Below, piece by piece: positions 868-19,188 of a stretch of 22,500 nucleotides of DNA; position 1 is the stretch's first letter; every line of letters starts with the position of its first letter. A program made the translations under genes and the position numbers. The notes under the pieces were generated by a model that was not told the origin of the DNA, made no database searches, and saw only the letters and a program-made list of their open reading frames with translations. The stretch is from a virus, in IMG/VR virus record IMGVR_UViG_3300025450_000136, positions 1 through 22,500 of that record. One strand, written 5' to 3'.

Positions 868-902
868 TATTAATGCATAAAAACAGGCAATTTAGCCCTA
901 AA
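868..902 (-). promoter_or_regulatory. Promoter-like element A (TTTAGGGC-N17-TGCATTAATA)
   Basis: On the minus strand, TTTAGGGC (902-895) is followed after 17 bases by TGCATTAATA (877-868) and then GAAATAGGG. The same two blocks with the same spacing recur near 15205-15239. The element lies 48 bases before the ATG of the Lys-rich gene and partly overlaps the endolysin stop codon. The -35/-10-like spacing and position suggest a promoter. No promoter class has been proven. Confidence 0.5.
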
Positions 903-1326
903 TTCCACGTAGGAATAGGGCTCGTTCTTTTTTGCGACGTTCGGTCAATTCTTCTGGTTTATTCCAGCGGAGAAACTGATCGGCCGCTTCCTTGTAATTG
1001 CCGTTATTTAAAACCCGCAATAACGTGGATTCTTCAAAATGTTCTTTGCCAATGTTAAAACAAAGACTAAATAGCGCGTCTTTTTGATTTTGGGTAATCG
1101 GTACTTTTACATTATCATTAATGCAATCTTCGCACCAAGCCGCGTCTTTTTCGAATAGATTTTCAACCTGCTGATCTGTTAATTCAGCAGCAATCAGATA
1201 TTCCTCGTTAGGCAGTATTAAATGGCCTATGCCAGTCGTCCATAAACCTTTGGTGTCTTTGTAGGCGCGGCGTCTTTTACCCTCGAAACCAACAATTACA
1301 TCGTACGTAGACTTTGCAATAGCCAT
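898..1326 (-). CDS. Endolysin, GH24 T4-type lysozyme
   Basis: This 142-aa protein is a muramidase that cuts the N-acetylmuramic acid to N-acetylglucosamine bond of peptidoglycan at the end of infection. The T4 lysozyme triad spacing is exact: Glu15, Asp24 and Thr30, matching E11, D20 and T26 of T4, within FEGKRRRAYKDTKGLWTTG. A second family signature, ITQNQKDALFSLCFNIG, lies near residues 77-93. There is no signal peptide or N-terminal membrane segment, so it should wait in the cytoplasm for holin pores. The length is typical for phage GH24 endolysins. Its ATG overlaps the stop of the i-spanin (TAATG), and GAGG lies upstream as ribosome site. It closes the lysis cassette. Function is assigned with high confidence. 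Confidence 0.95.
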   Translation of the reverse strand: MAIAKSTYDVIVGFEGKRRRAYKDTKGLWTTGIGHLILPNEEYLIAAELTDQQVENLFEKDAAWCEDCINDNVKVPITQNQKDALFSLCFNIGKEHFEESTLLRVLNNGNYKEAADQFLRWNKPEELTERRKKERALFLRGI

Positions 1327-1895
1327 TATTTGGCTGCCTCAAACGCCTGCAAGTCGCGCAGTTGCTGCGCTACTTTGTTGTATTTGATGTTGTTTTCTGC
1401 GATGGCGGAGAGTAGGGTAGCAATGTCAACTTCGGAGGGGGTTCCATCATCGCCGCTGGGGCTTGAGGTTTCACCACTTGCACTGGCGTTGAACAGCCTG
1501 ACAAAGCCATTAGAAACGACACAACCACGATCGTCATCCACAACCACTGATTCAGCATTGCTTGGAGACAGGGGCTTTGTTGGGTCAATTGGAACTTGAA
1601 CTGTTCGAATAATCTGGACCGCCTTGGGAACTTGCTTTTGGACGCTGGCAAGATTGTCAGATAAAACATTAAGCTGGCTAACGTATTGTGCAACCAACTG
1701 GTCGCCTTTTTGCTGAATTGCATTCTTTTCCCTTTCTGCTGCTAAACTGCTTTGTGCAATTTTATTCTGGTAATGCTTAGATGTAAAGTCATAACCTAAA
1801 AAGCCTCCCAAAGCTAGGGAGGCTATAAACACAATAAGGTAAGCATACAAACCGCTTACCGCGCCTGTTAAACCTTCAATTAAGTTTTTCCACAT
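1326..1895 (-). CDS. Rz: i-spanin (Rz-like inner-membrane spanin subunit)
   Basis: From the ATG at 1895 the protein has 189 residues. One membrane segment near residues 12-34 is followed by a long Gln/Ala/Lys-rich helical stretch that looks like a coiled coil, then a Ser/Asp-rich linker and a final helical segment. This is the plan of an Rz-type i-spanin, which spans the periplasm and pairs with an o-spanin to fuse inner and outer membranes in the last lysis step. A complete Rz1-like lipoprotein gene is embedded in the +1 frame, which supports the call more than sequence similarity does. A GTG at 1919 in the same frame would add eight residues but has no ribosome site, so I prefer the ATG. 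The gene overlaps the holin candidate upstream and the endolysin downstream. Confidence 0.82.
   Translation of the reverse strand: MWKNLIEGLTGAVSGLYAYLIVFIASLALGGFLGYDFTSKHYQNKIAQSSLAAEREKNAIQQKGDQLVAQYVSQLNVLSDNLASVQKQVPKAVQIIRTVQVPIDPTKPLSPSNAESVVVDDDRGCVVSNGFVRLFNASASGETSSPSGDDGTPSEVDIATLLSAIAENNIKYNKVAQQLRDLQAFEAAK
1370..1558 (-). CDS. Rz1: o-spanin (Rz1-like lipoprotein), nested in the i-spanin gene
   Basis: This 62-aa protein is read in the +1 frame entirely inside the i-spanin gene, as in phage lambda. It starts MLNQWLW and has a hydrophobic stretch ending in the lipobox LSGC, with the lipid-carrying Cys at residue 22. The mature part is about 40 residues and Pro-rich (STPVQVVKPQAP, MEPPPK, PYSPPSQ), as is usual for Rz1 proteins. 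It should be cleaved by signal peptidase II, anchored in the outer membrane and bound to the i-spanin across the periplasm. The frame stays open further upstream to 1723, but that extension does not look like a signal peptide. A second possible start is the ATG at 1537. No strong ribosome site is visible for either, so the exact start is uncertain. Confidence 0.85.
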   Translation of the reverse strand: MLNQWLWMTIVVVSFLMALSGCSTPVQVVKPQAPAAMMEPPPKLTLLPYSPPSQKTTSNTTK

Positions 1896-2124
1896 CTTTT
1901 TGAGTTGCGGCCTTTCCACCGATCATAACGCCGGCGCCACCAAGCAACGACCCAATCCCAACCCCATACTCAGAGGGCTGGAACTGGTGGTTTATGATGA
2001 CGTGGGCAATACCAAGCGCAATAAATGAAACAACCGATATAAATGCAGAAACCCGGGCAATACACCATGTGTTATTGTCATCTTCGGTGAACAGGTCTAC
2101 AAAGAATCGCTTGAATTCACTCAT
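1876..2124 (-). CDS. Holin candidate, two membrane segments
   Basis: This 82-aa protein has a charged N-terminus, a first membrane segment near residues 25-44, and a Gly-rich second segment near 53-70 (GVGIGSLLGGAGVMIGG). It ends with a charged tail. Size, two hydrophobic spans, charged tail and position just before the spanins and endolysin fit a class II-type holin, which would open the inner membrane for the cytoplasmic endolysin. I cannot tie it to a named holin family from sequence alone. Its ATG overlaps the stop of the preceding small membrane protein (ATGA), and its 3' end overlaps the spanin start by about 20 bases, so translation is probably coupled. It could instead be the antiholin, with the 76-aa neighbour as holin. 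Confidence 0.65.
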   Translation of the reverse strand: MSEFKRFFVDLFTEDDNNTWCIARVSAFISVVSFIALGIAHVIINHQFQPSEYGVGIGSLLGGAGVMIGGKAATQKDVEKLN

Positions 2125-2351
2125 TTTCGTATTGAATCCAGTTTGTCTTCAATTCGGTGAACAGCTTTCAGAACCTCATCCCAACGGTCAGAAAAATCCG
2201 ACTTATGCATGTAGTTCTCTGCCAAATGGGTGCGTAGGTCGCCAAGGTCGCTTTTAAGATCTTGAACAGCATCCCAGAGTTCTTTACAAAACCAACCCAT
2301 TGCCACACAAACAATCGGAAGGACCGTATTGATAAGGGTCTGAACGTCCAT
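2121..2351 (-). CDS. Small membrane-anchored coiled-coil protein of the lysis cassette
   Basis: This 76-aa protein has one hydrophobic stretch near residues 6-22 (LINTVLPIVCVAMGWF). A charged helical region follows (ELWDAVQDLKSDLGDLRTHL) and then a Lys/Asp-rich end with heptad-like spacing. The layout suggests one membrane anchor with a coiled coil. It sits directly upstream of the holin candidate with an ATGA overlap, so an accessory lysis role such as antiholin or holin partner is plausible. This rests on context only. I recognise no catalytic motif. Confidence 0.7.
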   Translation of the reverse strand: MDVQTLINTVLPIVCVAMGWFCKELWDAVQDLKSDLGDLRTHLAENYMHKSDFSDRWDEVLKAVHRIEDKLDSIRK

Positions 2352-2352
2352 T

Positions 2353-2565
2353 TTATTTAGCCGTTTCCCGCGCTAGGCGTTCTGCAGCTTGGTCCAAAAC
2401 CATCTTGCGCCAAGGGGCCAATTCTTCGGCCGGAGTGGTTACCACGGGAGCGGGAGTGGCTTCTACCACGGGGGTAGGTTCAGGCTCAACAGCTTTAGGC
2501 AGAGATTTTAAAACCTCTAACTCTGATTCGATGGATGCAAGAAGGTTTTCTGCGATGGTAGTCAT
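2353..2565 (-). CDS. Small Pro/Glu-rich hypothetical protein
   Basis: This 70-aa protein has a predicted N-terminal helix, a Pro/Val/Thr/Glu-rich middle (PEPTPVVEATPAPVV) that is probably disordered, and an amphipathic C-terminal helix (PWRKMVLDQAAERLARE). The family is not recognised. An AGGAACC ribosome site precedes the ATG and partly overlaps the TAG stop of the short glycosyltransferase gene upstream. Only one base separates its stop from the next start, so it belongs to the same transcription unit as the lysis genes. Confidence 0.65.
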   Translation of the reverse strand: MTTIAENLLASIESELEVLKSLPKAVEPEPTPVVEATPAPVVTTPAEELAPWRKMVLDQAAERLARETAK

Positions 2566-2573
2566 GGTGGTTC

Positions 2574-3002
2574 CTATTTTAAATACGGTAAAACAATTTC
2601 AGGCTCAACAAAACGTTCGTCTTTATGTTCAATGAGTTCCCATGAAGTGAACGGATTTTCAACTAAATACGAACGATCTTTTAATAAATTAACATTTTCT
2701 GGATAGCCAAATATCAATGGGTCCGACGGGCCCCACAAAACAATTCCTCTTTTGCCAAAGTCCCATGCAAAGTGTTGTAAAAAACTATCGCATGAAATCC
2801 AGATTCTGCATTCTTTAATAATTTCTGCTAACTGATCCAATGAAAGATTTTTTCTAAAATCCTCAACAAGTTGCTCTTCACCATCAAGCCCAACTTGGAC
2901 AATTGGCTCATCAATTTGAGCAATTAGCTCTTTCCAAAAAGGATAGTTTTTTGGATTCCTACTATCATGCAATCTTTGTGCGAATGGAGAAATTAAGATC
3001 AT
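2574..3002 (-). CDS. GT9-like (heptosyltransferase-type) glycosyltransferase fragment
   Basis: This 142-aa protein resembles the C-terminal nucleotide-sugar-binding half of glycosyltransferase family 9, the ADP-heptose:LPS heptosyltransferase type. The key stretch is near residues 68-100: WISCDSFLQHFAWDFGKRG followed by IVLWGPSDP. It matches the family pattern of a D-S/T-x-x-x-H-x-A segment, a Gly, and then a strand ending in a Gly-Pro turn. Full GT9 enzymes have about 300-350 residues and two Rossmann domains, so the acceptor-binding half is missing here. The gene overlaps the GT2-like gene by ATGA and is followed by the lysis module. It may be a minimal enzyme, a partner of the upstream glycosyltransferases, or a relic. 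Similarity is moderate. Confidence 0.6.
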   Translation of the reverse strand: MILISPFAQRLHDSRNPKNYPFWKELIAQIDEPIVQVGLDGEEQLVEDFRKNLSLDQLAEIIKECRIWISCDSFLQHFAWDFGKRGIVLWGPSDPLIFGYPENVNLLKDRSYLVENPFTSWELIEHKDERFVEPEIVLPYLK

Positions 3003-3973
3003 AGATACAGCTTTCTAAAACCGTTTTCTAATGTGTCTCGCCAATTCCATTGGCTCATTTTTCGGTACACATTCCACTGCTCTATGCTACCAAAATAGTT
3101 ATAGGCATCTCTAAGACTTGCCCCCGGAACAATTTCTGGATAGCACGTAAATACCAAGGGGTTTTTGATCAACGGCAGTATTCTTTTAAATACAACGTGA
3201 TCACCGCGGCCGCAATTAAGAACAACAATCGTTGCATCAGCGCAGCGAAGGAAGTTTTTAAATATTTCCTCATCGTGTCGATACAAATCCATGTTGGTTT
3301 CGGCACGAATTCCACCTTGGGGGTTCTTCATGTGCCACGTTATTGCATTGGGCACAACCAATAAGTCATATCCCTTTTGATGCAACGCCCAAGTAAACAA
3401 TGTTTCTTCTCGGTGCGCTACACGCGATAAACCTAAGTTGTAATCACAAATACCTGCCCGGTACAAAAACGTGCAGTGTAAATGATCAACCTTTTTAACT
3501 TCTTTTATAACATTCCATTGAATGTTAGGCTCGTCAAAAATGTCATTGATTTTACCGGTTACTTTAGATGTGTCTGGAAAATCAGGCGGTGTTAACACAG
3601 CGCCACCAACCGCACCTAAATTTTTATATATTTTGGTGTATTCGTACAACGTTTCCAAAACATTTGGCTCTGGCACTGCGTCATCATCTACACGCCAAAC
3701 CCAGTCATACCCCATCACGTTGGCTTGGTGGTGGATGTGGTGCTGACCTTTTTTCTCCGCTTCACGCCATTCCCAAGGAACGCCTTTGCGGTCTAATATT
3801 TTGAAAAAATAATCATACACCAACTGGCCGCGCACATCTTTGAATACATCGTTGTCGTCAAAGATAATTAATTTATCTGGCAGTTTGGTTTGGTTGATGA
3901 TTGCATTCAACACTATCGGCAACGTCGTATCATAACGGCCTCGGGTTGCCACCGAGCAAAGTACTTTACTCAT
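2999..3973 (-). CDS. GT2-type (GT-A fold) glycosyltransferase
   Basis: This 324-aa protein begins with a nucleotide-binding strand (SKVLCSVATRGRYDTTLPI) as in family 2 glycosyltransferases. It carries an acidic metal-binding motif DDD at residues 96-98 in VWRVDDDAVPEPNVLE, the usual DXD position. A region near residues 170-200 (SRVAHREETLFTWAL) may hold the catalytic acidic residue. The product would be a soluble enzyme that moves an activated sugar onto an unknown acceptor. About 80 C-terminal residues after the GT-A core are not recognised. The gene overlaps both neighbours by a few bases, so the three glycan genes are probably translated together. Acceptor and sugar cannot be told from sequence. 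Confidence 0.82.
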   Translation of the reverse strand: MSKVLCSVATRGRYDTTLPIVLNAIINQTKLPDKLIIFDDNDVFKDVRGQLVYDYFFKILDRKGVPWEWREAEKKGQHHIHHQANVMGYDWVWRVDDDAVPEPNVLETLYEYTKIYKNLGAVGGAVLTPPDFPDTSKVTGKINDIFDEPNIQWNVIKEVKKVDHLHCTFLYRAGICDYNLGLSRVAHREETLFTWALHQKGYDLLVVPNAITWHMKNPQGGIRAETNMDLYRHDEEIFKNFLRCADATIVVLNCGRGDHVVFKRILPLIKNPLVFTCYPEIVPGASLRDAYNYFGSIEQWNVYRKMSQWNWRDTLENGFRKLYL

Positions 3974-5204
3974 TATCGTAGATACACAGCATTAAGTTGG
4001 CGGGGTTTTCAGAAGACACACTATTCAGCGTGTCAGATATGTTACCATCAAAGTCAACATATGTAAACTTAAACCCCGGAAAATCTTTTTCCGTCAAACC
4101 ATGCAGTTTGTGGTGTTCGCCCCAAAAACCTTTGGGCTCATCGTACGGCACCGAAATTAATAACCGTTTGCAATGGCCTTTTAGCTTTTCAACAATTTCC
4201 AAGCCATTATCAAGGTGTTCAATCACCTCAAAGGCAATGATTGTGTTATACCTGCCCAACTCAAATGTGTTAATGTCAGCATAATAAAAAGTTGCGTTGT
4301 CAGACCACTGTTGCTCTTTTGCCACTTTCACAATCTGTGGGTCGTAATCCAGCCCCATGTACGTAACATCTTCTGGCAAAAACTGGTAACCGTAGCCCGT
4401 GGAGCATCCAATCTCCAAAACTTGGCCGCCTTTTAGGTTACGAGCCGCCCATTCATAACGCTGTGTTTCTCTTGAAAACACTGGGTCGCCTTTAAGGAAC
4501 ACAGCGCGTTCATAATTGTTTGACAAGTACCAACGGTACCAGTCCATGTTGTTGTACTTCTTTGCCAGTTTGACTTCGTTGTCTGAAAACGTTTGTTTCC
4601 AGTCTTTAACTAACGTTTCGTCATGCACAGTGCCTTCAGCCACATGGAAGATTGGGAAGTCACCTTTATAACCCACATCAGCCAGCTTAAAACCCGCATC
4701 TAGGGCCCGTTTGCAAAAATCAATGTCTTCGCATCCACCAACGTTAAACTGTTCGTCTAATAGGCCAATTTTGTCAAATACCTTTTTCTGAATCATTACA
4801 CAGAAAAAGACACCAAATGGCTCGTTTGTAATTTTGGAGCGTTGCGTTAGAACTGCTGATATATCACCGATACACAAGCGTTCTAGCCATTTGTTTTTTG
4901 GCTGTTCCAACAACACCGTGTCGTTATTCAACAACACAATTTTGTCGGTTGTGGCCTTTTTAGTGCCCGCATTAGCAGCTTTGGCAAACCCAAGTGGCTT
5001 ATCATCCCAAAGGGCAATGAAATCCAAGCCGGTGGCTTGAAGAAAATTCAAGTAGGCCTTGGTGGCATCTTGACATCCATTTGCTACGATTATCAACTCG
5101 ACATCTGACATGTCGGTGTATTTGATGATCGACTCAATGCAAGGCTTGAGGTATCTTTCGCAGTTGTTGTAAGTTGGTATTACAACGCTATATTTTTTAG
5201 GCAT
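3966..5204 (-). CDS. Fusion of GT2 glycosyltransferase and SAM-dependent methyltransferase
   Basis: This 412-aa protein has two domains. Residues 1-230 are a GT2 domain: SVVIPTYNN at 6-14, the acidic motif LLNNDT at 91-96, and EDIDFCKR at 159-166, which is typical of the catalytic base region. Residues 245-412 are a class I methyltransferase: motif I VLEIGCSTGYG at 262-272, an acidic strand end LDYDP near 285-289, and FEVIEHL at 325-331 as in small-molecule and glycan methyltransferases. The protein could add a sugar and O-methylate it, or cap a chain. An inverted repeat and a promoter-like element precede the gene, and a 16-base palindrome overlaps the ATG. It heads the glycan cassette. The domain calls are strong, but the substrate is unknown. 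Confidence 0.88.
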   Translation of the reverse strand: MPKKYSVVIPTYNNCERYLKPCIESIIKYTDMSDVELIIVANGCQDATKAYLNFLQATGLDFIALWDDKPLGFAKAANAGTKKATTDKIVLLNNDTVLLEQPKNKWLERLCIGDISAVLTQRSKITNEPFGVFFCVMIQKKVFDKIGLLDEQFNVGGCEDIDFCKRALDAGFKLADVGYKGDFPIFHVAEGTVHDETLVKDWKQTFSDNEVKLAKKYNNMDWYRWYLSNNYERAVFLKGDPVFSRETQRYEWAARNLKGGQVLEIGCSTGYGYQFLPEDVTYMGLDYDPQIVKVAKEQQWSDNATFYYADINTFELGRYNTIIAFEVIEHLDNGLEIVEKLKGHCKRLLISVPYDEPKGFWGEHHKLHGLTEKDFPGFKFTYVDFDGNISDTLNSVSSENPANLMLCIYDNE

Positions 5205-5219
5205 ATACTTTACAGTATA
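5204..5219 (-). promoter_or_regulatory. 16-base palindrome at the start codon of the GT-methyltransferase gene
   Basis: TATACT and AGTATA form a perfect 6-bp inverted repeat with GTAA between them on the minus strand. The last base is the A of the ATG. It could be an operator, or a weak RNA hairpin that hides the start region. No clear Shine-Dalgarno sequence is present here. Confidence 0.4.
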
Positions 5220-5223
5220 AAAG

Positions 5224-5276
5224 TTTGAGGAATTTTCGCTTAACCGTCACCTATATTAATGCAAAAATCCCTCAAA
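5224..5276 (-). promoter_or_regulatory. Long inverted repeat holding promoter-like element B
   Basis: The arms 5276-5261 and 5239-5224 pair over 16 positions as RNA, with 14 Watson-Crick and two G-U pairs, around a 21-base loop. TGCATTAATA (5263-5254) sits across the end of the first arm and the loop and is followed by TAGGTGAC. The ATG of the next gene is 49 bases after the element, close to the 48 bases seen at element A. A short CTTTTA run after the stem could make it a weak terminator for the fibre operon. A promoter or operator is equally possible. Confidence 0.5.
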
Positions 5277-5292
5277 ACCGCCTTGTTTAAAT

Positions 5293-5745
5293 TTATGCTG
5301 TTGGCGCTGTAGGCCAAGTAATTTCCCAAGGAAAGCCAGCTTCTTTAGGCAAATCACGCAAGGCTTGACGGTATGTTGCCCATGCTGCTTTATCTACTGG
5401 CGCATCAGCAACTTGTGTCCAATCGCAAGCTGTCAACTTGGCGTTGCGCTGTTGGCGAACCGATGCGGCTTGGGCTGCGTCAGTTGCTGCTTTGGCGTCA
5501 GCGTCCATGTCAGTCACGACAAACGATGTGTACCATTGACCGTTTTCTTCAATAGCAGGGCCAGCACTAGCAACTTGACAGTGTGTTAGCGTAGGACTAG
5601 GCCCATCAAATACAACATCGGCTTGCAATTCGTCAAGAATTTCAGTCGTAGTTTGACCCCATGAAGGGCCACCGTTGGAAGCAATGTATTGGCGGAATGC
5701 TTCCTCAAACATTACTTGTCCGTTTGAGCGTAGTCGAATTTGCAT
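5293..5745 (-). CDS. Tail fibre assembly / tail-assembly-chaperone-like protein
   Basis: This 150-aa protein ends in a domain like the phage tail assembly chaperone family (Phage_tail_APC type). An R-x-x-x-L-x-x-x-D-W core (RNAKLTACDWTQVADAP) is followed by an A-x-W-A-x-Y-R-Q-A-L-R-D-L helix and the Trp/Pro-rich end PWEITWPTAP. Such small proteins usually lie right after a tail fibre gene and help fibres fold or attach. Here it directly follows the 661-aa fibre gene. The first 90 residues are not recognised. AAGGAC lies before the ATG. A second gene with the same C-terminal plan is at 8283-8681. The family call is reasonable, but chaperone function is inferred. Confidence 0.75.
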   Translation of the reverse strand: MQIRLRSNGQVMFEEAFRQYIASNGGPSWGQTTTEILDELQADVVFDGPSPTLTHCQVASAGPAIEENGQWYTSFVVTDMDADAKAATDAAQAASVRQQRNAKLTACDWTQVADAPVDKAAWATYRQALRDLPKEAGFPWEITWPTAPTA

Positions 5746-5754
5746 GATTTGTCC

Positions 5755-7740: not shown

Positions 7741-7749
7741 CGCTATTCC

Positions 7750-8280: not shown

Positions 8281-8282
8281 AT

Positions 8283-8681: not shown

Positions 8682-8693
8682 GATTTACTCCTA

Positions 8694-10655: not shown

Positions 10656-10673
10656 GTTAAATCCCCTTTATTC

Positions 10674-13019
10674 TTAAAATGCCCCACCAGCAATACCGGT
10701 TGGTACAGTCAAAAGCCCCGTAGTATCAATAGTCGCAGCAAGTCCACCGTTAACACTAAAATAAATAGGATTGCTGGTGGTAGAACCAAGAGCCAAAGGC
10801 CCTGAAGTTGAACTAACATACACCACATTCGGTATATTAAACGGCGTGGCCGATGTTCCCGACCAACCAGAACTATTTATACCAAAGTCACCATAATATG
10901 TGCCCGATGTACCAAGGTTGTTACTTACAACATAATCTGATGAGGCTGTAGATCCCGCATTTGTGTTTTGCAGAACAATCTGGTTATAGGTGTTTACACT
11001 TGAAGTATACGATGCAAAAATATTAACATCGCTATAGCTTAACGTACCATAATTAAATGCACCGGCTGTTAGGGCGCCTGTAATAGTGCCGGTTGCAGTA
11101 TGGAACGGCGAAGTAAATACTTTGGTTGAGCCGTTAAAATACAACCCATCGCTGCTAAAACCATACGCTGTTTGGTTCGATCCCAAAGCGGGAACAGCAA
11201 CCAAAAAGTAGTTGGCATTCGTCGTGCTATCCGTTGCGTTAATTTGCGTAGACGGCCCTGTTGCACCGCTAAAACCAGAGTAGCCAGAGATGCCACTAAA
11301 ACCAGAGTAGCCCGATACGCCAGAGCCGCTGTAACCCGAATAGCCAGAAATGCCACTATAGCCGGATAGGCCGAAACCGCTATAACCTGAAGTACCAGAG
11401 TAGCCAGAAATACCGCTATAACCAGAAATTCCGCTAAAGCCAGAGTAGCCAGAAATGCCACTAAATCCAGAGTAGCCTGATACGCCAGAGCCGCTATAGC
11501 CGCTTATACCGGACCAGCCCGAGATTCCACTAAAGCCCGAATAGCCGCTGATACCTGACCAGCCCGATATGCCGCTAAAGCCCGAGTATCCGCTATAGCC
11601 GCTGATACCAGACCAGCCTGAAATTCCACTAAAACCCGAATAGCCGCTTATGCCCGACCAGCCAGAAATGCCACTAAAGCCAGAGTAGCCACTGATGCCA
11701 GACCAGCCAGAAATACCAGAATAGCCGCTAAAACCAGAGTAGCCTGATATTCCGCTGGCGCCGCTATAGCCACTGGTTCCAGAATAACCTGAAATGCCAC
11801 TGAATCCAGAATAGCCTGAAATACCGCTATAACCTGAATAACCAGAAAGACCAAACCCAGAATAGCCAGAAAAACCACTGTATCCAGAATAACCAGAAAG
11901 GCCAAACCCAGAATAGCCAGAATAGCCGCTTGTGCCGGGAGGTCCTACAATCTGACCGACATTATTCCAAACCGTTCCAGACCAAACATACAAATCGCCA
12001 TTAGAGCTAACAATGTACGCATCGTTAACTTGATTGCCAGTTGCTGGCAAATTTGCCGGTGTGGCAACCGTACCTTTGATGTTGATCGAAGTACCTTGCT
12101 GTCCAGATATACCCGAAAAACCACTAAAACCGCTGTAGCCGCTTACTCCTGAGCCAGAGTACCCTGAGGTACCTGAATAGCCAGAAACGCCGCTAAAGCC
12201 CGATAAACCGCTGTAGCCGCTGAAACCAGAGAAGCTGGAGTAGCCAGAAAGTCCAGAATAGCCCGAAAAGCCACTATATCCGCTGATGCCGGACCAGCCA
12301 GAAGTGCCCGAATAGCCGCTAAAACCTGAAATGCCAGACCAGCCTGATGTTCCGCTGTAACCAGAATATCCGCTAAAACCACTCAAACCCGACCAGCCAG
12401 AAATACCCGAATATCCGCTAAAACCACTTAGGCCCGACCATCCGGAAATACCTGAATAGCCGCTATATCCACTGATGCCAGACCAGCCAGAAGTGCCCGA
12501 ATAGCCGCTAAACCCGCTATAACCTGACGTGCCCGATGTTCCTGATGTACCTACACCAGAATAGCCTGATGTGCCTGAATATCCAGAATAGCCAGAAACA
12601 CCTGAACCAGAATAGCCCGATGTACCAGAGTAGCCAGAAATTCCGCTAAAGCCTGATGTGCCTGAATATCCCGAAAAGCCGCTGTATCCAGAATAACCCG
12701 ATGTGCCAGTAACTTGGCCGCAATCAATAGTTGCGCCAGTTGTTTCAGTTAAAATCAAATGACCGTTGGAGTCAATTGTTGCTGAAACAAACCCCGGAAT
12801 AGGCCCAACTTGCGACGTTGTTCCATCGCTATAGTAAAAAATCAGGTCGTAATTTGATGGATTAAGTGCGACGTTGGTAATCAGTTTACCGGGCGAAGCT
12901 GCATTGGCAATCTGCGAAACAGACGCCTGTTTGGTTACCCCGTTTTGCACAACCGGAACTTGCTCATTACCTGTAAGGTTTAAAGCAACTGGCAGTTGTG
13001 TTATACTCTGATCAGCCAT
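10674..13019 (-). CDS. Collagen-like tail fibre with Pro-poor Gly-X-Ser repeats
   Basis: This 781-aa protein has a 104-residue N-terminal part (SITQLPVALNLTGNEQVPVV), probably for virion attachment. A Gly-X-Ser repeat follows (residues about 105-304), then a short globular insert (about 305-356; INIKGTVATPANLPATGN). A second Gly-X-Ser block runs to about residue 584, and a beta-rich C-terminal domain of about 195 residues follows. Gly occupies every third position over about 430 residues, almost always with Ser before it and Tyr, Phe, Trp, Ile, Thr, Leu or Val after it. This fits a collagen-like triple-helix stalk, but Pro is nearly absent apart from one GPPG. I infer a long trimeric fibre with the receptor-binding part at the C-terminus. 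Confidence 0.85.
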   Translation of the reverse strand: MADQSITQLPVALNLTGNEQVPVVQNGVTKQASVSQIANAASPGKLITNVALNPSNYDLIFYYSDGTTSQVGPIPGFVSATIDSNGHLILTETTGATIDCGQVTGTSGYSGYSGFSGYSGTSGFSGISGYSGTSGYSGSGVSGYSGYSGTSGYSGVGTSGTSGTSGYSGFSGYSGTSGWSGISGYSGYSGISGWSGLSGFSGYSGISGWSGLSGFSGYSGYSGTSGWSGISGFSGYSGTSGWSGISGYSGFSGYSGLSGYSSFSGFSGYSGLSGFSGVSGYSGTSGYSGSGVSGYSGFSGFSGISGQQGTSINIKGTVATPANLPATGNQVNDAYIVSSNGDLYVWSGTVWNNVGQIVGPPGTSGYSGYSGFGLSGYSGYSGFSGYSGFGLSGYSGYSGISGYSGFSGISGYSGTSGYSGASGISGYSGFSGYSGISGWSGISGYSGFSGISGWSGISGYSGFSGISGWSGISGYSGYSGFSGISGWSGISGYSGFSGISGWSGISGYSGSGVSGYSGFSGISGYSGFSGISGYSGISGYSGTSGYSGFGLSGYSGISGYSGYSGSGVSGYSGFSGISGYSGFSGATGPSTQINATDSTTNANYFLVAVPALGSNQTAYGFSSDGLYFNGSTKVFTSPFHTATGTITGALTAGAFNYGTLSYSDVNIFASYTSSVNTYNQIVLQNTNAGSTASSDYVVSNNLGTSGTYYGDFGINSSGWSGTSATPFNIPNVVYVSSTSGPLALGSTTSNPIYFSVNGGLAATIDTTGLLTVPTGIAGGAF
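11268..11947 (-). repeat. Gly-X-Ser coding repeat, block 2
   Basis: These 9-bp units (two Gly-X-Ser triplets make 18 bp) are organised in places as a 45-bp unit encoding ISGWSGISGYSGFSG. The units differ mostly at third codon positions, so protein sequence is conserved more than DNA. This is a coding repeat, not a CRISPR array: there are no unique spacers of constant length. Confidence 0.8.
12105..12707 (-). repeat. Gly-X-Ser coding repeat, block 1
   Basis: This is the same type of repeat as the downstream block, covering fibre residues about 105-304. It includes a run of three Gly-Thr-Ser triplets (GTSGTSGTSG) near 12530 and repeated ISGWSGLSGFSGYSG units near 12330-12430. Synonymous differences between units are frequent. 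Confidence 0.8.
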
Positions 13020-13028
13020 TTATTCTTC

Positions 13029-13655
13029 TTATGATACGTAAGTAAACCCGCCGTAATACGTGCCGGTTCCAAATGGAGATATAACAGCCACGTCAACAAT
13101 ACCATCAACGGCATAGGCCGGCGACGTTGCGACAATGGTTGTCGAGTTGATCAAATTAAATGTGGCTGATGTGCCGCCGAACCTAACGGTGTTTACAGCC
13201 GTAAAATTAGCCCCGGTAAGGGTAACCGTAGTACCGCCAGCTTTGGGGCCCGTATTGGGCGTTATAACCTCAATGTAGGGGTATAAAACCATCGGCGAAG
13301 GAACTACGTTGCTGTTTTTATTCAGGTCGCCTGTTCCGTTGGCATACGTACCACTTGTACCCTCAATGAACAACGAATTACCGTTTTGGAATCCGTTTTC
13401 TGTCGTAATCTGGTCACCACCAATTGGGCCCGTAGCCACAGACACATCAGGCCGCGGGAAACGCAGCGCAATATTTTCTGTTTGACGAGCGGGCAGCCGC
13501 CATGGGTCAAAATTATCTAAGTCGTCCTTGCACACCCGCATACCCGGAAAATTCGGGTCTGGCATTAGCTCTACATACGGAAATTTTCTGTTGCAGCGGT
13601 CACAGACCGCTACAGACAGAACCGAGTAGCTACTGGTGTCAAGAAAGACTGGCAT
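13029..13655 (-). CDS. Virion protein with N-terminal Cys motif and C-terminal IPT/TIG domain
   Basis: This 208-aa protein has an N-terminal Cys-containing motif: Cys18-x-x-Cys21 in CDRCNRKFPYVEL and Cys42 in MRVCKDD. It looks like a small zinc site with three Cys and perhaps an Asp. The middle is Gly/Asn/Thr-rich. Residues about 124-208 form an IPT/TIG immunoglobulin-like domain: ITPNTGPKAGGTTVTLTGAN, then VRFGGTSATF, IVATSPA and VAVISPFGTG. IPT domains occur in phage surface and tail proteins and bind carbohydrates or other proteins. The gene lies between a structural gene (its ATG directly abuts that stop) and the collagen-like fibre, so it may be a fibre-attachment or decoration protein. 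The IPT call is good, and the metal site is tentative. Confidence 0.75.
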   Translation of the reverse strand: MPVFLDTSSYSVLSVAVCDRCNRKFPYVELMPDPNFPGMRVCKDDLDNFDPWRLPARQTENIALRFPRPDVSVATGPIGGDQITTENGFQNGNSLFIEGTSGTYANGTGDLNKNSNVVPSPMVLYPYIEVITPNTGPKAGGTTVTLTGANFTAVNTVRFGGTSATFNLINSTTIVATSPAYAVDGIVDVAVISPFGTGTYYGGFTYVS

Positions 13656-14486
13656 TTAAGCAGTTTGACCGTCGTTCTTGATCAAAATACCGCCGGCGTA
13701 CACATCAGCGGCAAATGGAGAACCCGTATTGGCTTTAATTTGGTATTGAATGTCCGTACCCTCTTCGTGCGCCACTGGAATAGTGTAAGGAATATTCAAT
13801 GTCTGCACAAAGGGTGTCTGTGAAACTACAGTCGTATTGCTACCATAGTTGACAGGATAGCCATTGACATTATCGCCGCTAATTGCAATGTTGAATTTGT
13901 TATATTCAACAAATGTCATGTAGTTGCTAGATGTAAAACCAATGCTAGAATCACTTTGAACATAGCTCAAATAAAATGTATAGCCGCGAGGTACGGTATA
14001 CAAAGACATTTGTGTTTGACCAATGCCGGGATTAATTTGTGCGTACAAATTAGAACCGTTTTTGCAAGTAATTGTGCCAGCATTGATGCCGTTAGTTACC
14101 AACAAACCATTAATACGGAAATACGAGTTAACAGTTGTTACTGGAGTTGTTCCCGTCAAAGTAATGTACTCAGACAACAAATTAAAGTTTGCGTCCAAAC
14201 CCATAACAAAGATAATTTGCGTATCTGTGGTGGTGGATACCAACGTCATTTGCAAGGCAGAGCCGGGGTACACATAAGCGCCGCCAGAAAGGGTCAAACC
14301 TTCCCAAAGAGGGCCCAGTGCGGTAGAACCCACAGTTGCGCTGTAGCCAAAAATCTCAACGGGAATGTGGTCCATAATCTGCCCACGGCCAACCTGCAAA
14401 TCAAAGGGCTCGTAAGCACCCATTTTTGTTACAGATTGCGGGGGAGAAGGATTTTGCTGAAGATTTGTTTTTAAGATCGAAGCCAT
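13656..14486 (-). CDS. Hypothetical structural protein of the head-tail/fibre module
   Basis: This 276-aa protein has few charged residues and many predicted beta strands. It starts with a short Pro/Gln-rich arm (ASILKTNLQQNPSPPQSVTK) and ends in VAHEEGTDIQYQIKANTG and YAGGILIKNDGQ. I recognise no enzymatic motif or named family. Composition and place among virion genes suggest a structural component, for example a decoration, neck or tail-tube-related protein. It has an AAGGAATT site upstream of the ATG. A 52-base gap with a small GC-rich hairpin separates it from the preceding gene. Confidence 0.65.
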   Translation of the reverse strand: MASILKTNLQQNPSPPQSVTKMGAYEPFDLQVGRGQIMDHIPVEIFGYSATVGSTALGPLWEGLTLSGGAYVYPGSALQMTLVSTTTDTQIIFVMGLDANFNLLSEYITLTGTTPVTTVNSYFRINGLLVTNGINAGTITCKNGSNLYAQINPGIGQTQMSLYTVPRGYTFYLSYVQSDSSIGFTSSNYMTFVEYNKFNIAISGDNVNGYPVNYGSNTTVVSQTPFVQTLNIPYTIPVAHEEGTDIQYQIKANTGSPFAADVYAGGILIKNDGQTA

Positions 14487-14510
14487 AATTAATTCCTTAT
14501 AAGTTAAATC

Positions 14511-14527
14511 GGGGGCACAAGGCCCCC
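14511..14527 (-). terminator. Small GC-rich hairpin, possible weak terminator
   Basis: A perfect 6-bp stem GGGGGC/GCCCCC with a 5-base loop lies in the 52-base gap after the stop at 14539. Only a short GATTT follows on the minus strand, so it would be weak. It may be an RNA processing or stabilising hairpin instead. Confidence 0.35.
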
Positions 14528-14538
14528 AAGGTAATTAA

Positions 14539-15108
14539 TTATTGGTTGGTGTAGCCTTGGCCGACGTTGATGATCGAGCCAGTGTAATTACGTGCGGTGT
14601 AATCCACGGAGATAACGCCACCCAAGGTGCCGGTGTTAGCCGACACAGTAGCTGCGCTAAAAGTCAACGTGGCGTCAACCAAACCGATGTTTTCCAAAAT
14701 GGCTGCGGTGGCTGCTGTAGCAGTAAACACGCCAGCAATACGGCCACCAGCGGCTGTGGGAGTGATTGTACCAATAGCGGTAGTTGTCACGTTGCCAGTG
14801 GAGGGGTTAGTTTGTGCGATCGACACAGTGATCACGCCGCCGGTCAGGCCAGTGGCTGCAGTGTCTTGGTACAACGCAATGCCTTCAATGATTGCGCCAG
14901 CGGGCAACACGAAAGGAGTAACGGTTGTAGTACCAATATCGGCTGTAGTCAGCGTGGTGGCGCCGCTAGTGGTGCCAACGATGGGATTGGTGATGTAAGA
15001 TTGCTGTGAGCAACGAACAGCGCCTGAGTTATCAGGAGCAATAGTGCCGTTATTCGTGGGGTTGTTATATTTGTAAACACGAATCGGCTGATTAAAAGTA
15101 ACTGACAT
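14539..15108 (-). CDS. Hypothetical Thr/Ala/Gly-rich structural protein
   Basis: This 189-aa protein from the ATG at 15108 starts SVTFNQPIRVYKYNN and then is a Thr/Ala/Val/Gly-rich beta protein (PFVLPAGAIIEGIALYQDT, then GGVITVSIAQTNPSTGN). The family is not recognised. First place after the major capsid gene, high expression signals and lack of charge suggest an abundant virion protein such as a capsid decoration protein. The start is chosen for AGGAAA nine bases upstream. A GTG at 15141 in frame lies inside the leader hairpin region and has no ribosome site. Its 186-base leader carries a promoter-like element and a strong hairpin. Confidence 0.68.
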   Translation of the reverse strand: MSVTFNQPIRVYKYNNPTNNGTIAPDNSGAVRCSQQSYITNPIVGTTSGATTLTTADIGTTTVTPFVLPAGAIIEGIALYQDTAATGLTGGVITVSIAQTNPSTGNVTTTAIGTITPTAAGGRIAGVFTATAATAAILENIGLVDATLTFSAATVSANTGTLGGVISVDYTARNYTGSIINVGQGYTNQ

Positions 15109-15134
15109 TTGATTTTTCCTATCAAGAGTTTTTA

Positions 15135-15178
15135 GCCCCACTCAGTCGCTTGATCGTAGCCCCGGGAAGCGACGGGGC
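15135..15178 (-). promoter_or_regulatory. 5' leader hairpin of the structural gene
   Basis: A 7-bp stem GTCGCTT/AAGCGAC (15173-15167 with 15151-15145) encloses a 15-base loop. It is extended by GCCCC/GGGGC (15178-15174 with 15139-15135) after a 5-base bulge. It lies between the promoter-like element and the ribosome site. It could stabilise the transcript or control translation. Confidence 0.5.
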
Positions 15179-15204
15179 CCTGTTGGGGGCGAACTTCCTA
15201 TTCC

Positions 15205-15239
15205 TATTAATGCAAACATTTAGATTATATCGCCCTAAA
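15205..15239 (-). promoter_or_regulatory. Promoter-like element C (TTTAGGGC-N17-TGCATTAATA)
   Basis: TTTAGGGC (15239-15232) and TGCATTAATA (15214-15205) on the minus strand are separated by 17 bases, exactly as at element A, and are followed by GGAATAGGA. The element begins just after the terminator of the capsid gene, the natural place for a new promoter. A perfect TATAAT also lies between the blocks (15229-15224), so a host-type -10 is an alternative. Confidence 0.6.
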
Positions 15240-15241
15240 AT

Positions 15242-15275
15242 AAAAAACCCCCGACCTTTTAAGTCGGGGGTTTTT
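15242..15275 (-). terminator. Intrinsic terminator after the major capsid gene
   Basis: CCCCCGAC pairs with GTCGGGGG (15248-15255 and 15263-15270) around a 7-base loop. A-run and T-run flanks extend the stem to about 13 bp. On the minus strand the stem is followed by TTTTTTATTTT. It lies 19 bases after the capsid stop. The A/T flanks on both sides would let it work in both directions. Confidence 0.92.
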
Positions 15276-15294
15276 AGGGTGTTAATCTTTTAGA

Positions 15295-16212
15295 TTAAAC
15301 GCCTTGTGTGCCGTAAATATTACGGGCATCGTGCCAGCCGGTAGCATAACGCTCGGTGGCTTTGTAACGCATAGAGTCGGTTTCGAAATCGCCTTCCATA
15401 GATTTTTCCATGGGACGACGCATAACCAACATCAAACCGTTTTCAGCGTCGGTTTGAATCCACCATGCTTTAGAAGAGCTCAAACGAGTCACGACGTGAG
15501 TGCCCTTAGGCAACATGCCGGTAGACTTGATCGGGTTCAGATCGTTGTCGGCGGTGCCGGAACGCAGAACAGACTTCAGGATCACTTCAGCTTGGAATTC
15601 CAAAGCAGGAGGAACCACCAGTTGTTCAGCCTTCAGGCGGATACGCTTACCGTTATTGTCAACGGCGCTACGGATTTGAATCAACAACTGTTCAACAGAA
15701 GTTTGGCTCAAAGAAGCAGCGGTAGACAATTGGTTAGAGTAAGAACCACCGTTAGCAATGGGGTGAGCGGTGTTGATCAAGGTCACGCCGTCGCCGCCGA
15801 TGTAGCCGCTGGTGAACGCGAAGTTCAACAAGTTGGCGCACAAAGTTTCCTTGGTTTCAATCATCGATTGAGCCAAGTGTTTAGCGAAAGTGCTACCGAT
15901 ACGGATGTGGTCACCGTCTTCCATCAACACTTTGGTCAAGGCGTAAGCCAAGCCATAGATTTGATAGATGAAACGTGTGATGTACAGAGTACCGCCTTGG
16001 TCATAGCTGACAGGAGTGCCGTCAGGCATAGCTGGGGCGGCATTCATGCCGTACAACATCACTTCTTCGTGGTAGTTGCGGGGAATACCTTGGATTTGTT
16101 CAACAAATCCTTTCCATTCGTCCGCACGTTGTTCATAAACACCGTCAAAGACTTCGTTGATAATCGGTTCGACTACCGCACGAAAGTCCGTACTGCGCAT
16201 TGGGGTTGCCAT
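15295..16212 (-). CDS. Major capsid protein (HK97-fold, Mu gpT-like)
   Basis: This 305-aa protein resembles major head subunits of the Mu gpT-like group. It has an N-terminal helical segment (FRAVVEPIINEVFDGVYEQ) and a central IYGLAYALTKVLMEDGDHIR region. The stretch LINTAHPIANGGSYSNQ matches the N-T-x-H-P-x-x-x-G-G-x-x-S-N signature often seen in these capsid proteins. The C-terminus is basic and aromatic (AWWIQTDAENGLMLVMRRPM, then ERYATGWHDARNIYG). Length is normal for this group and no fused protease is evident. An AAAGGAT ribosome site precedes the ATG. Scaffold-like and portal genes upstream and a strong terminator downstream fit a highly expressed capsid gene. Confidence 0.88.
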   Translation of the reverse strand: MATPMRSTDFRAVVEPIINEVFDGVYEQRADEWKGFVEQIQGIPRNYHEEVMLYGMNAAPAMPDGTPVSYDQGGTLYITRFIYQIYGLAYALTKVLMEDGDHIRIGSTFAKHLAQSMIETKETLCANLLNFAFTSGYIGGDGVTLINTAHPIANGGSYSNQLSTAASLSQTSVEQLLIQIRSAVDNNGKRIRLKAEQLVVPPALEFQAEVILKSVLRSGTADNDLNPIKSTGMLPKGTHVVTRLSSSKAWWIQTDAENGLMLVMRRPMEKSMEGDFETDSMRYKATERYATGWHDARNIYGTQGV

Positions 16213-16236
16213 GGCTTATATCCTTTCGTTAATTAA

Positions 16237-16908
16237 TTAAACCGATACCGAGGCGGCAGCGAATTGGTTATTGCAGATTTGAACTTGCACGATTGTGTAA
16301 GCGTCACCCCAAGCGTTATTATAACCGCCGGGATAAGCCACTTCGCGGCCCAAACCAACAACACGAACTTGACCTTGGTTGCCTGTACCGACAGAAGTTG
16401 CCAACAAAGCGGCGGTCGAGAAGCCAGCGCCCCCGTTGCCGATTGCGTAACCGTCAGTCACTGTAGAACCAGTGGTCGTGTCGAAGTTGTACTCTGTACC
16501 AATAGCTGCTGTAGTAACAGAACCATTGACTTGAGCTTCATACACCAATGCGGGATCAGAGAAGATCCAGAAAATGATGTTGGTAGAAGCGTCCAAAGTT
16601 GTCTTGGATGCGTACTTAGCAACAGAACGACGACCGTCAGAGTTGGTGTACTCGACGCCATCAAACACGCCGAACACTTTGCCAGAGCCAGAGCCCGAAG
16701 CATTTTGTGCAGCGATTGTCAATTGACCTGTGGTAGTAATAGCCACGGGTTGGAATTGCCAGAAAGATTGGCCGGAGGACAGTGAGTACGGAGCGGTATA
16801 AGTAGTGCCGGGATTGTAGGTATTAGTACCTGCAAATGCCGTAGCACGATCCAAACCACTTGGATGATACACTGGCTTCAGACCAAAGGGTTGAAATACT
16901 GTGGACAT
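16237..16908 (-). CDS. Hypothetical virion protein upstream of the capsid gene
   Basis: From the ATG at 16908 the protein has 223 residues. It starts STVFQPFGLKPVYHPSGLDR and then is beta-rich with Gly/Thr/Ser-rich stretches (GSGSGKVFGVFDGVEYTN, then AIGNGGAGFSTAALLATSVG). The family is not recognised. Its place between the scaffold region and the major capsid gene, its composition and a strong AAAGGAAAA site suggest a head protein made in quantity, for example a decoration or minor capsid protein. The frame stays open to 17073, but that extension overlaps the preceding gene and has basic residues unlike the rest, so I reject it. Confidence 0.7.
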   Translation of the reverse strand: MSTVFQPFGLKPVYHPSGLDRATAFAGTNTYNPGTTYTAPYSLSSGQSFWQFQPVAITTTGQLTIAAQNASGSGSGKVFGVFDGVEYTNSDGRRSVAKYASKTTLDASTNIIFWIFSDPALVYEAQVNGSVTTAAIGTEYNFDTTTGSTVTDGYAIGNGGAGFSTAALLATSVGTGNQGQVRVVGLGREVAYPGGYNNAWGDAYTIVQVQICNNQFAAASVSV

Positions 16909-16933
16909 ATTTTCCTTTGTTATTTTGAAGTTG

Positions 16934-17485
16934 TTATTGGAAACGAATATTGCTACTCGCTTTTCGAGTTTCCTTTTCCATTTCCAGAATTCCGCCTTCA
17001 AGAATAGAACGACCGCCTTTTCCGTCTTGGGCCGTATCACGAACCGCTGCGGTAATATTGCGCTGATGCTCAAGGGGATCCTCTAAATGCATCATTTTCA
17101 TTACTTCTTGATAAACTTCTTCCGGCAATTTGAAAAGAATCATCTCGTTGCAAGAAACACAGCCTTCAAACTTGCCTGAATTCATTTTGCCTAGTCCCTC
17201 AAAGCCTTGTCCTAGTTCACTGGCTTTAACTGGCTCATAACCCAACGCCATACGTTTGTCGATACTGTCATATGTGTTGGTTGTTGACAACCAACACAAA
17301 TGCATTCCCGGGATTGCGTCCCGAGGAATATCTGGCAGTGCACTATTCTGCCATTTGTCACGGAAGGCCTCAAGACGCTCCCGTTGTGCCTTAGCGTCAC
17401 CACTTAAGGCCTGACGCTCATGAACTGCTTGTACGCGGTCGGCCAAACGGTCTTCGACATCGCGTTTAATACGTGTATTTGTCAT
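16934..17485 (-). CDS. Hypothetical head-module protein
   Basis: This 183-aa protein is mostly helical and charged, with an Arg/Glu-rich N-terminus (RIKRDVEDRLADRVQAVHER). A central segment, IPGMHLCWLSTTNTYDSIDKR, is followed by YEPVKASELGQGFEGLG, and a Cys-x-x-Cys-like pair (FEGCVSCNEMILFKLPEE) lies near residues 108-111. The C-terminus is again helical and basic (RSILEGGILEMEKETRK). I do not recognise the family. Similar unknown proteins sit between scaffold and capsid genes in related phages as far as I can judge. A structural or assembly role is inferred. AAAGGAT precedes the ATG. Confidence 0.68.
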   Translation of the reverse strand: MTNTRIKRDVEDRLADRVQAVHERQALSGDAKAQRERLEAFRDKWQNSALPDIPRDAIPGMHLCWLSTTNTYDSIDKRMALGYEPVKASELGQGFEGLGKMNSGKFEGCVSCNEMILFKLPEEVYQEVMKMMHLEDPLEHQRNITAAVRDTAQDGKGGRSILEGGILEMEKETRKASSNIRFQ

Positions 17486-17490
17486 TTCAT

Positions 17491-18468
17491 TTATCCTTTA
17501 TTCTGACGATCATATGCGGCGTATGCGCGGATCATCTTATTGCGTTTGTTAACATCATCCCAAGCCCCAGCCTCTTTAATGGCCTGCACACGATCACGAC
17601 TTAGCGTAATCTGGCCGGGTTTTGTGCCCTGTGCCTGTGCAGTACGGCTTGATGCCGTGGGGTTGGCTCGTCTGCCGCCTTTTCCGGTGTACCGGTGAGG
17701 CAAACGTGTTGACAAACGACTATCTAACTCGTCCCAATATTCTGGGTCTGCTGGGTCCCACCCATCGGCAGCGAGTTCGGAGTCAATTACTTTGGCAATT
17801 CTACTATCTGTATCACGTGCTTGGGGATCGTACCAAGAATTCTTCTTTAACCACGTTGTGGCGTTACGTTGAATCTCAGACGATGCCACATTAGGCACGT
17901 TTTGTTTGGGACTCCTTGCGGCGTCCACTTGTTGTTTCTTATAATGCTGGAGTTGCTGCAGTTTTTGCTTGGATTCTGTCAAAGCCTCCAAGTACTCAAC
18001 CTGAGCCGCTGCATCGCCATTACGTGCAGCTTCCATCATCTTCATTTTGGCGTATTCAACCCGAGTTGCCTCGTCTTCAACCGCCTTATCAATCTGCGCA
18101 AACTGGTATGATACAGCCGTGTTCTCTACAGCAGCCAATCGTTTTGCCAGTTCTTCGTTCCGTCGCTCCAGCGCCGAAATTTTATGTTTGGCAGACGCAT
18201 CACGTTCTTTTTGCAGTGCTTTTTTCAGCCGACGCTCTTCACGCCTTGCTTCTCGGATCTTCTCGCGGTCGTCTTCGGTATCGCCTTCGACATTTTCGTC
18301 GGCGCTGGCTTCAGTATCCTCTTCATCTACCGAACCACCTTCCGCTTTTTCGTCCGTATCTTCATCATCTTCCAACACATCGTCGGGATGGGTGCCAACA
18401 CTTGCTAGAACTGTGCCGTCTTCGCGTTCCTTAATCGGAATATTATCAATTTTTTCTTGTTCGCTCAT
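17491..18468 (-). CDS. Scaffolding-like acidic coiled-coil protein
   Basis: This 325-aa protein from the ATG at 18468 begins with a very acidic region (residues about 30-75; DDVLEDDEDTDEKAEGGS). A long Lys/Arg/Glu-rich helical stretch follows (REERRLKKALQKERDASAKH, then LERRNEELAKRLAAVEN) that should form a coiled coil. Next come helices rich in Gln and Ala, and then a C-terminal part with WYDPQARDTDSRIAKVI and PEYWDELDSRLSTRLPHR. Composition, length and place between portal and major capsid fit a scaffolding protein that directs procapsid assembly. No protease motif is visible. A TTG at 18492 in frame would overlap the preceding gene, so the ATG is preferred. Confidence 0.75.
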   Translation of the reverse strand: MSEQEKIDNIPIKEREDGTVLASVGTHPDDVLEDDEDTDEKAEGGSVDEEDTEASADENVEGDTEDDREKIREARREERRLKKALQKERDASAKHKISALERRNEELAKRLAAVENTAVSYQFAQIDKAVEDEATRVEYAKMKMMEAARNGDAAAQVEYLEALTESKQKLQQLQHYKKQQVDAARSPKQNVPNVASSEIQRNATTWLKKNSWYDPQARDTDSRIAKVIDSELAADGWDPADPEYWDELDSRLSTRLPHRYTGKGGRRANPTASSRTAQAQGTKPGQITLSRDRVQAIKEAGAWDDVNKRNKMIRAYAAYDRQNKG

Positions 18469-18481
18469 ACTTTTTCCAAAG

Positions 18482-18919
18482 TTAATCCACAAAGGCCTTC
18501 ATCTTTTGCGCTGCATCGAAAGATTTAATCTTAGAAATAATCTCACGTGCTTGAACGGTAATAAACACTACCGGTGCGCCTTCATCATCAGGTTGAATCA
18601 CATAACGATCGCCGCCGTATTTAATGGTGCGTACCAGATCACCTTCTTTACACCAAGGACCTTCAATCCAAGGGCTCAAATCATCTGGGCTCTTATACGC
18701 CAAAGGTCCAACTTGGATAACCTTGGCTACTGTCTCATTAAATCGGAGCGTTTGTTTAGTTTCATCAACTAAAATAATGCCGCCCTTGCTTGTTGTCTTC
18801 TCGCGTCGCAGTTGAACCAAGACACGATCACCTAAAACTTCGATACCACAATCTACATCCGGAAAACACTCTTTTTCCGAACGCAAATCAGGCTCGTCGC
18901 CTTGTTTAAAGTCAATCAC
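18482..18919 (-). CDS. GroES-like co-chaperonin
   Basis: This 145-aa protein has the cpn10 plan. LGDRVLVQLRRE (residues 29-40) matches the GroES start. A mobile-loop-like segment KTTSKGGIILVDETKQT (41-57) follows, containing the GG-I-I-L motif that in GroES docks on GroEL, and then NETVAKVIQVGPLAY (61-75). A later strand, YGGDRYVIQPDDEGAPVVFI, fits the rest of the barrel. Host GroES has about 97 residues, so about 28 N-terminal residues and an insert near 76-95 are additional. It would cap host GroEL while folding phage head protein, as T4 gp31 does. The GTG start is supported by AAGGAG nine bases upstream. It sits between the portal and scaffold genes. Confidence 0.85.
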   Translation of the reverse strand: MIDFKQGDEPDLRSEKECFPDVDCGIEVLGDRVLVQLRREKTTSKGGIILVDETKQTLRFNETVAKVIQVGPLAYKSPDDLSPWIEGPWCKEGDLVRTIKYGGDRYVIQPDDEGAPVVFITVQAREIISKIKSFDAAQKMKAFVD

Positions 18920-18934
18920 TTTACAGTGCTCCTT

Positions 18935-18948
18935 ACGCCTTACGGCGT
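18935..18948 (-). promoter_or_regulatory. Hairpin with GTAA loop before the co-chaperonin ribosome site
   Basis: ACGCC and GGCGT form a 5-bp stem with a GTAA (GNRA-type) loop on the minus strand, directly before AAGGAG in the 33-base gap. It could be a short RNA structure affecting initiation at the GTG codon. It is short enough to be chance. Confidence 0.3.
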
Positions 18949-18952
18949 TTAC

Positions 18953-19144
18953 TTACATATCCTCTTCGTCTTCGCTAAGGATTTGGTTTATAATATCCAA
19001 TGCATCTTGGATACCAACTTTTTGTCCAACTAACCTCTGGTAAGAGGCAAAATCGTGAACATTAACACCTGACGAAATTGCTAGGGTTAAATCTTTATCA
19101 GCGTTTTTCAAACGCTTTATCATTTCAGATACAATATCCTTCAT
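18953..19144 (-). CDS. Small hypothetical helical protein
   Basis: From the ATG at 19144 this protein has 63 residues: MKDIVSEMIKRLKNADKDL, a short middle (VNVHDFASYQRLVGQKVGIQ) and an acidic C-terminal helix (ALDIINQILSEDEEDM). The family is not recognised, but the pattern resembles small unknown proteins next to portal genes in tailed phages. A TTG at 19162 would add six residues but has no ribosome site. The gene lies 36 bases after promoter-like element D. Confidence 0.65.
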   Translation of the reverse strand: MKDIVSEMIKRLKNADKDLTLAISSGVNVHDFASYQRLVGQKVGIQDALDIINQILSEDEEDM

Positions 19145-19160
19145 ATCTTTATTAATACAC

Positions 19161-19188
19161 AAGGCGGAAAATACCCGCCCTTAATGCA
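19161..19188 (-). promoter_or_regulatory. Hairpin and promoter-like element D (TGCATTAA)
   Basis: TGCATTAA (19188-19181) on the minus strand shares eight bases with elements A-C. It begins one base past the first base of the TGA stop of the 77-aa gene. The last bases run into a hairpin, AAGGGCGG/CCGCCTT with a 7-base loop and one bulged G. No T-run follows, so it is a poor terminator. The match is shorter than at the other sites, so support is weaker. Confidence 0.35.

Follow-up and report, generated by a model that had tools for sequence, protein, structure and literature searches.

Probable TG-extended -10 promoters and a putative cognate sigma factor lacking region 4 in an uncultured group of freshwater phages

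Middle promoters of phage T4 are served by MotA and AsiA at a box near -30 combined with a -10 element, and the activator replaces the contacts of sigma region 4. Late transcription in T4 uses the sigma factor gp55 with gp33 (PMC2988020). The candidate system described here resembles that of gp55 in having a small sigma70-family phage protein that would work with host core polymerase, a distinctive -10 element, and no part that reads a -35 element. It differs in that the phage sigma keeps regions 1.2 and 3 and the -10 element is of the extended TG type; moreover, the putative late sites here have a box upstream, an element that T4 late promoters lack, and gp33 does not read DNA. T4 middle transcription remodels host sigma70, whereas here a phage sigma without region 4 is found. 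Extended -10 promoters of sigma70 provide a further likeness, with TG one base before the -10 hexamer and sigma regions 2.4 and 3.0 that can be aligned, but the hexamer is ATTAAT or ATTAGT here and TATAAT in sigma70, and the contact residues differ between the classes of phage. Literature searches, which covered this group of phages and phage sigma factors that lack region 4, yielded no description of such a system.

The stretch of DNA analyzed (the window) is the whole of a 22.5-kb viral record, which is probably a fragment. It encodes structural and lysis genes, a GroES-like co-chaperonin, and glycosyltransferases. Its capsid protein shares 66 to 67% identity with its counterparts in Caulobacter phages RW and GB2A and in one environmental genome, and the 80 best viral contigs by capsid have capsid proteins at least 94% identical to that of the window. 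The element belongs to an uncultured freshwater phage group; a host search of a genome collection gave a single distant match only. Caulobacter phage RW and pelagiphage HTVC023P have homologous capsid and portal proteins, and RW shares the GroES-like gene, which lies within the head-gene cluster in both (window positions 18482 to 18919, minus strand). Unlike the window's group, RW and MW202545 showed no such sigma factor, no such decamer, and no match to the leader RNA model described below. RW (L084, L085) has a dispersed repeat of its own, in which GC-rich words such as CGCGCCGCTGAGGT occur more than 30 times. The window also encodes a tail-fibre-like protein with long runs of SGYSG-type repeats (10674 to 13019, minus strand). 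Within the spanin-like gene at 1326 to 1919, a 117-amino-acid open reading frame in another frame (1370 to 1723, minus strand) has the lipobox-like motif LSGCS and may be a nested outer spanin.

The promoter features of the window, all on the minus strand, are as follows.

868 to 877, minus strand: promoter 1, extended -10 decamer TGCATTAATA (exact match; matrix score, 42.4); predicted +1 at 862, gene ATG at 819
895 to 902, minus strand: upstream box TTTAGGGC, placed 17 bases ahead of the promoter 1 decamer (sequence context)
5254 to 5263, minus strand: candidate promoter 2, decamer TGCATTAATA (exact match), preceding the glycosyltransferase gene at 3966 to 5204
5278 to 5284, minus strand: box of candidate promoter 2, degenerate (AAGGCGG) and one base nearer than usual (sequence context)
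15205 to 15214, minus strand: promoter 3, decamer TGCATTAATA (matrix score, 47.7), past the capsid gene; predicted +1 at 15199
15232 to 15239, minus strand: upstream box TTTAGGGC of promoter 3 (sequence context)
15248 to 15270, minus strand: terminator-like stem-loop separating the capsid gene from promoter 3, CCCCCGAC-loop-GTCGGGGG and then a run of T (read from the sequence)
19150 to 19159, minus strand: promoter 4, core TGTATTAATA (sequence context; matrix score, 33.3)
19177 to 19183, minus strand: upstream box TAAGGGC of promoter 4 (sequence context)
18953 to 19144, minus strand: small gene whose ATG is the predicted +1 of promoter 4; leaderless mRNA predicted

A preliminary description of the window had listed four intergenic copies of the element. 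Three of them, exact copies of TGCATTAATA at 877-868, 5263-5254, and 15214-15205 on the minus strand, were confirmed, and the record holds no further copy; sites 1 and 3 were indeed preceded by TTTAGGGC at a distance of exactly 17 bases. The fourth, placed at 19188-19181, had to be moved, because the word TGCATTAA assigned to it extends into AAGGGCGGG, which is the box belonging to the true site. There, the TGTATTAATA core lies 17 bases below GGGC and the ATG begins 15 bases below the start of the core; the orthologues of promoter 4 in contigs G002 and G004 likewise have TGTATTAATA. When one mismatch was allowed, TGCATTAATA had 7 matches in the window against 2.66 expected, a number reached in 2 of 100 shuffles. 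With a scoring matrix of 54 columns learned from the relatives, the scores listed above for the sites at 15214, 877, and 19159 compare with at most 9.7 in 50 shuffles, and the endolysin match at 1125, already suspected of being a decoy, dropped out. The second site (5263) scored below 4 despite its exact decamer, owing to a degenerate box placed one base nearer, and no other of the four is as weak. In locus L029, there is a similar site flanked by the same sequence.

In related loci, the full element consists of TTAGGGCG, 17 bases, TGCATTARTA, and then a T and an A at decamer positions 14 and 15 (T14-A15). Across 80 related loci, the exact decamer occurred 37 times on the gene strand versus 3 times on the other strand. 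The position of promoter 3 is shared with most relatives, and the layout of stem-loop and promoter seen in the window is repeated there: in most loci, the capsid gene is followed by a terminator-like hairpin, TTTAGGGCG, about 17 bases, the decamer, and then ATAGGAAGA. The spacing is fixed, with GGGC starting 21 bases ahead of the decamer in 134 of 161 distinct sites, and T14-A15 was found at 207 of 212 boxed sites compared with 391 of 7,067 control positions. At 75 of 193 distinct boxed sites (~39%), the A of an open-frame ATG falls exactly at decamer+15, and none falls at +14 or +16. This phase suggests that the A of T14-A15 is the transcription start and predicts leaderless mRNAs at the sites where it coincides with the ATG.

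With +1 placed at this A, TG lies at -15/-14, ATTAAT at -12 to -7, and the box at about -37 to -31. Compared with a canonical extended -10 promoter (A at -11, T at -7), most classes have the TG and the T at -7, and position -11 is T, in a register that depends on the inferred +1. The T at -11, where sigma70 promoters usually have A, counts against the reading that we favor. In four long contigs, the box accompanies 23 of 24 sites on the structural strand versus 6 of 16 on the replication strand (Fisher P = 8.5e-5; two apparent decoys inside genes were left out, and one borderline box was scored as absent). Thus, the structural-strand sites do not consist of a -10 element only, as gp55-type promoters do. 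The box-less sites are probably middle promoters and the boxed sites late promoters. A scan for sigma70-type promoters in an early region showed no excess over shuffles. As a separate observation, L009, L016, L022, L035, L038, L050, and other loci have a short gene between the capsid gene and the leader promoter; by eye it is homing-endonuclease-like, and often a TATAAT-like element, with no phage decamer, stands just before its ATG.

Promoter 3 is followed by a leader of about 90 bases that appears to be structured.

15109 to 15198, minus strand: leader RNA, conserved and with pseudoknots, that separates promoter 3 from the ATG at 15108 (helix counts; model score, 65.3 bits, with the window in the training set)
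14539 to 15108, minus strand: gene after the leader, start taken at ATG 15108 (open reading frame; no PHROG match)

Four helices cross in three places, forming pseudoknots. In the 43 sequences of alignment A3 (the window and 42 relatives), 92.5% of cells pair, compared with no more than 53% in slid controls, a lenient comparison because the structure was read from the same 43 sequences. The double changes are the stronger point: 19 of the 24 pairs have changed on both sides, and covariation was 0.351 versus 0.152 after shuffling. The leader model matched once per genome, in the post-capsid place, and the leader RNA had no match in Rfam. We guess at a role in mRNA stability or in translation of the next gene.

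Each phage uses mostly one decamer word. Apart from single exceptions, G003 has TGCATAAGTA, G001, G007, and G008 have TGCATTAGTA, and G002, G004, and G010 have TGCATTAATA; further contigs use CGTATTAGT[AT] and TGTATTATTA. Among within-locus pairs of boxed sites, 227 of 238 were identical, whereas shuffling gave a mean of 76 and a maximum of 96. Variants were mixed in 7 of 69 loci.

A candidate reader of the decamer was found in the relatives. Sigma region 2 (PF04542) was detected in four of seven long contigs; the other three showed no sigma, and at least some of them are incomplete there. In single-protein scans, the region scored 23 to 31 bits around a cutoff of 24. In total, 80 sigma loci were found. 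The protein has 190 to 201 residues with regions 1.2, 2, and 3 and ends after region 3, so that region 4 is absent. Its profile aligns to residues 121 to 287 of the 390 of SigA (E = 8e-33), the predicted fold (mean pLDDT, 79) matches RpoS and SigA, and nothing in the phage collection exceeds about 40% identity to it. By these comparisons, it is identified as a truncated member of the sigma70 family. The window's contig and its closest long relative, G004, whose capsid protein is identical, lack the stretch where the sigma gene should lie. The sigma of the window's own phage would therefore be represented by those of G002 and G030, which use the window's decamer and carry sigma and capsid genes on one contig.

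The decamer follows the sigma. On a sigma tree from which the DNA-reading columns had been removed, the decamer state needs 4 changes, which is the minimum, compared with 17.8 after shuffling; on a capsid tree, it needs 24 changes against a minimum of 7, the two trees using partly different contigs. Eleven contigs have both genes, and 8 cases could be tested: the decamer was that of the nearest sigma in all 8 and that of the nearest capsid in 3. Both this pairing and the residue differences given below are correlations over few independent switches, about four on the sigma tree. In sigma70, the residues that bear on position -12 are Q437 and T440, and those that bear on the TG motif are E458 and H455, a contact of the extended -10 element (PMC2613000). 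Residue positions were assigned with an E. coli RpoD sequence as the ruler, and the region boundaries were checked independently. At the position of T440, the TTAAT class has T and the CGT class has E; the TTAGT class has mostly R or K, and the TAAGT class mostly N or Q. The CGT class, in which the TGC triplet is altered, is also the only one to replace N with K at the H455 position. Each phage thus appears to read its own decamer variant with its own shortened sigma, as natural lock-and-key pairs.

Taken together, host core polymerase with the phage sigma probably transcribes the middle and late genes through TGCATTAATA-type extended -10 elements, with a putative phage protein reading the box; we give this reading a probability of about 0.83. 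The preliminary description had proposed a phage-specific promoter recognized by a modified host or phage polymerase, and this proposal is favored by the recurrence of the element, its fixed spacing and +1, its uniformity within each phage, and the sigma pairing. Host core RNA polymerase would carry the ~190-residue phage sigma (regions 1.2, 2, and 3, no region 4), which would read TG at -15/-14 and ATTAAT at -12 to -7. Structural-gene sites would have the TTAGGGCG box in addition, at about -37 to -31. Its most likely ligand is another phage protein, which would take over from the missing region 4 and mark late promoters; replication-gene sites would mostly do without the box. Transcription would start at the A of T14-A15, which is also the start-codon A at about 39% of boxed sites. 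As in T4, a small sigma without region 4 would then have cognate late promoters, with late expression predicted from sequence.

A host sigma factor could instead read the element and the phage sigma have some other role: extended -10 promoters are also read by host sigma70, and no sigma is seen on the contig of the window. Different decamer classes may also belong to different hosts. However, phages whose capsids are nearly identical differ in their words, and the word goes with the phage sigma and not with the capsid; in addition, relatives of other hosts that lack the phage sigma also lack the decamer. We consider this explanation improbable.

Slightly less probable still is a single-subunit phage RNA polymerase reading the element in the manner of T7, with TTTGCATTARTANNNTATAGGAAGA as its promoter. 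T7-type promoters are similar in core size, in having conserved bases around +1, and in the use of a single word per phage. Nevertheless, no such polymerase was found among the ten early proteins of G004 that were scanned, or in a six-frame search of seven contigs, not all of them complete, in which the PF00940 control gave no signal. AGGAAG, conserved downstream of +1, belongs to an RNA helix and does not occur at leaderless sites, and the upstream box with its spacing fits a sigma-type layout better than a T7-type promoter. That the element is a protein-binding or replication/packaging mark travelling with the sigma-primase region, and no promoter core, is very improbable, given its exact phase with the ATG, its placement right after terminator-like hairpins, its strand bias, and the fact that sites distant from the sigma gene change with the sigma.

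For the reading in which the phage sigma recognizes the decamer, several candidates for the box reader were considered and rejected. A split sigma with a separate region-4 protein had one candidate, a 56-amino-acid protein of G001, which has no relative in the other long contigs. This protein (L088:17512-17682, minus strand) resembles sigma region 4 alone (E = 2e-6). In most sigma loci, a conserved protein of about 90 to 120 residues overlaps or abuts the sigma stop codon (A4; e.g., L107:10569-10898), and it had no Pfam, NCBIfam, or fold match. As box reader, the downstream neighbor of sigma was dropped because 16 of 64 sigma loci showed no sign of it, and boxed sites persist in several of those 16. 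Among the conserved small early proteins, a DUF3310 protein, a DUF6321 protein, and a weakly terminase-small-like protein gave no clear box reader. A sigma54 promoter, with GG and GC 10 bases apart, does not fit, as the box lies 17 bases before the decamer.

More tentatively, and with somewhat less than even confidence, there may be at least five recombining sigma-promoter pairs. In each, a sigma without region 4 would set the -10 word, a separate phage protein would read the AGGGCG box instead of region 4, and all promoters of a genome would take the new word when the sigma changes.

Several natural sigma-promoter pairs would make the DNA-reading rules of sigma, including the extended -10 contact, testable by pair swaps. 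The pairs also pose the question of how about ten promoters per genome switch word together. Uncultured phage contigs can be sorted by regulatory class, and exact transcript starts and leaderless mRNAs are predicted. In addition, the analysis uncovered a structured leader RNA that has no Rfam family.
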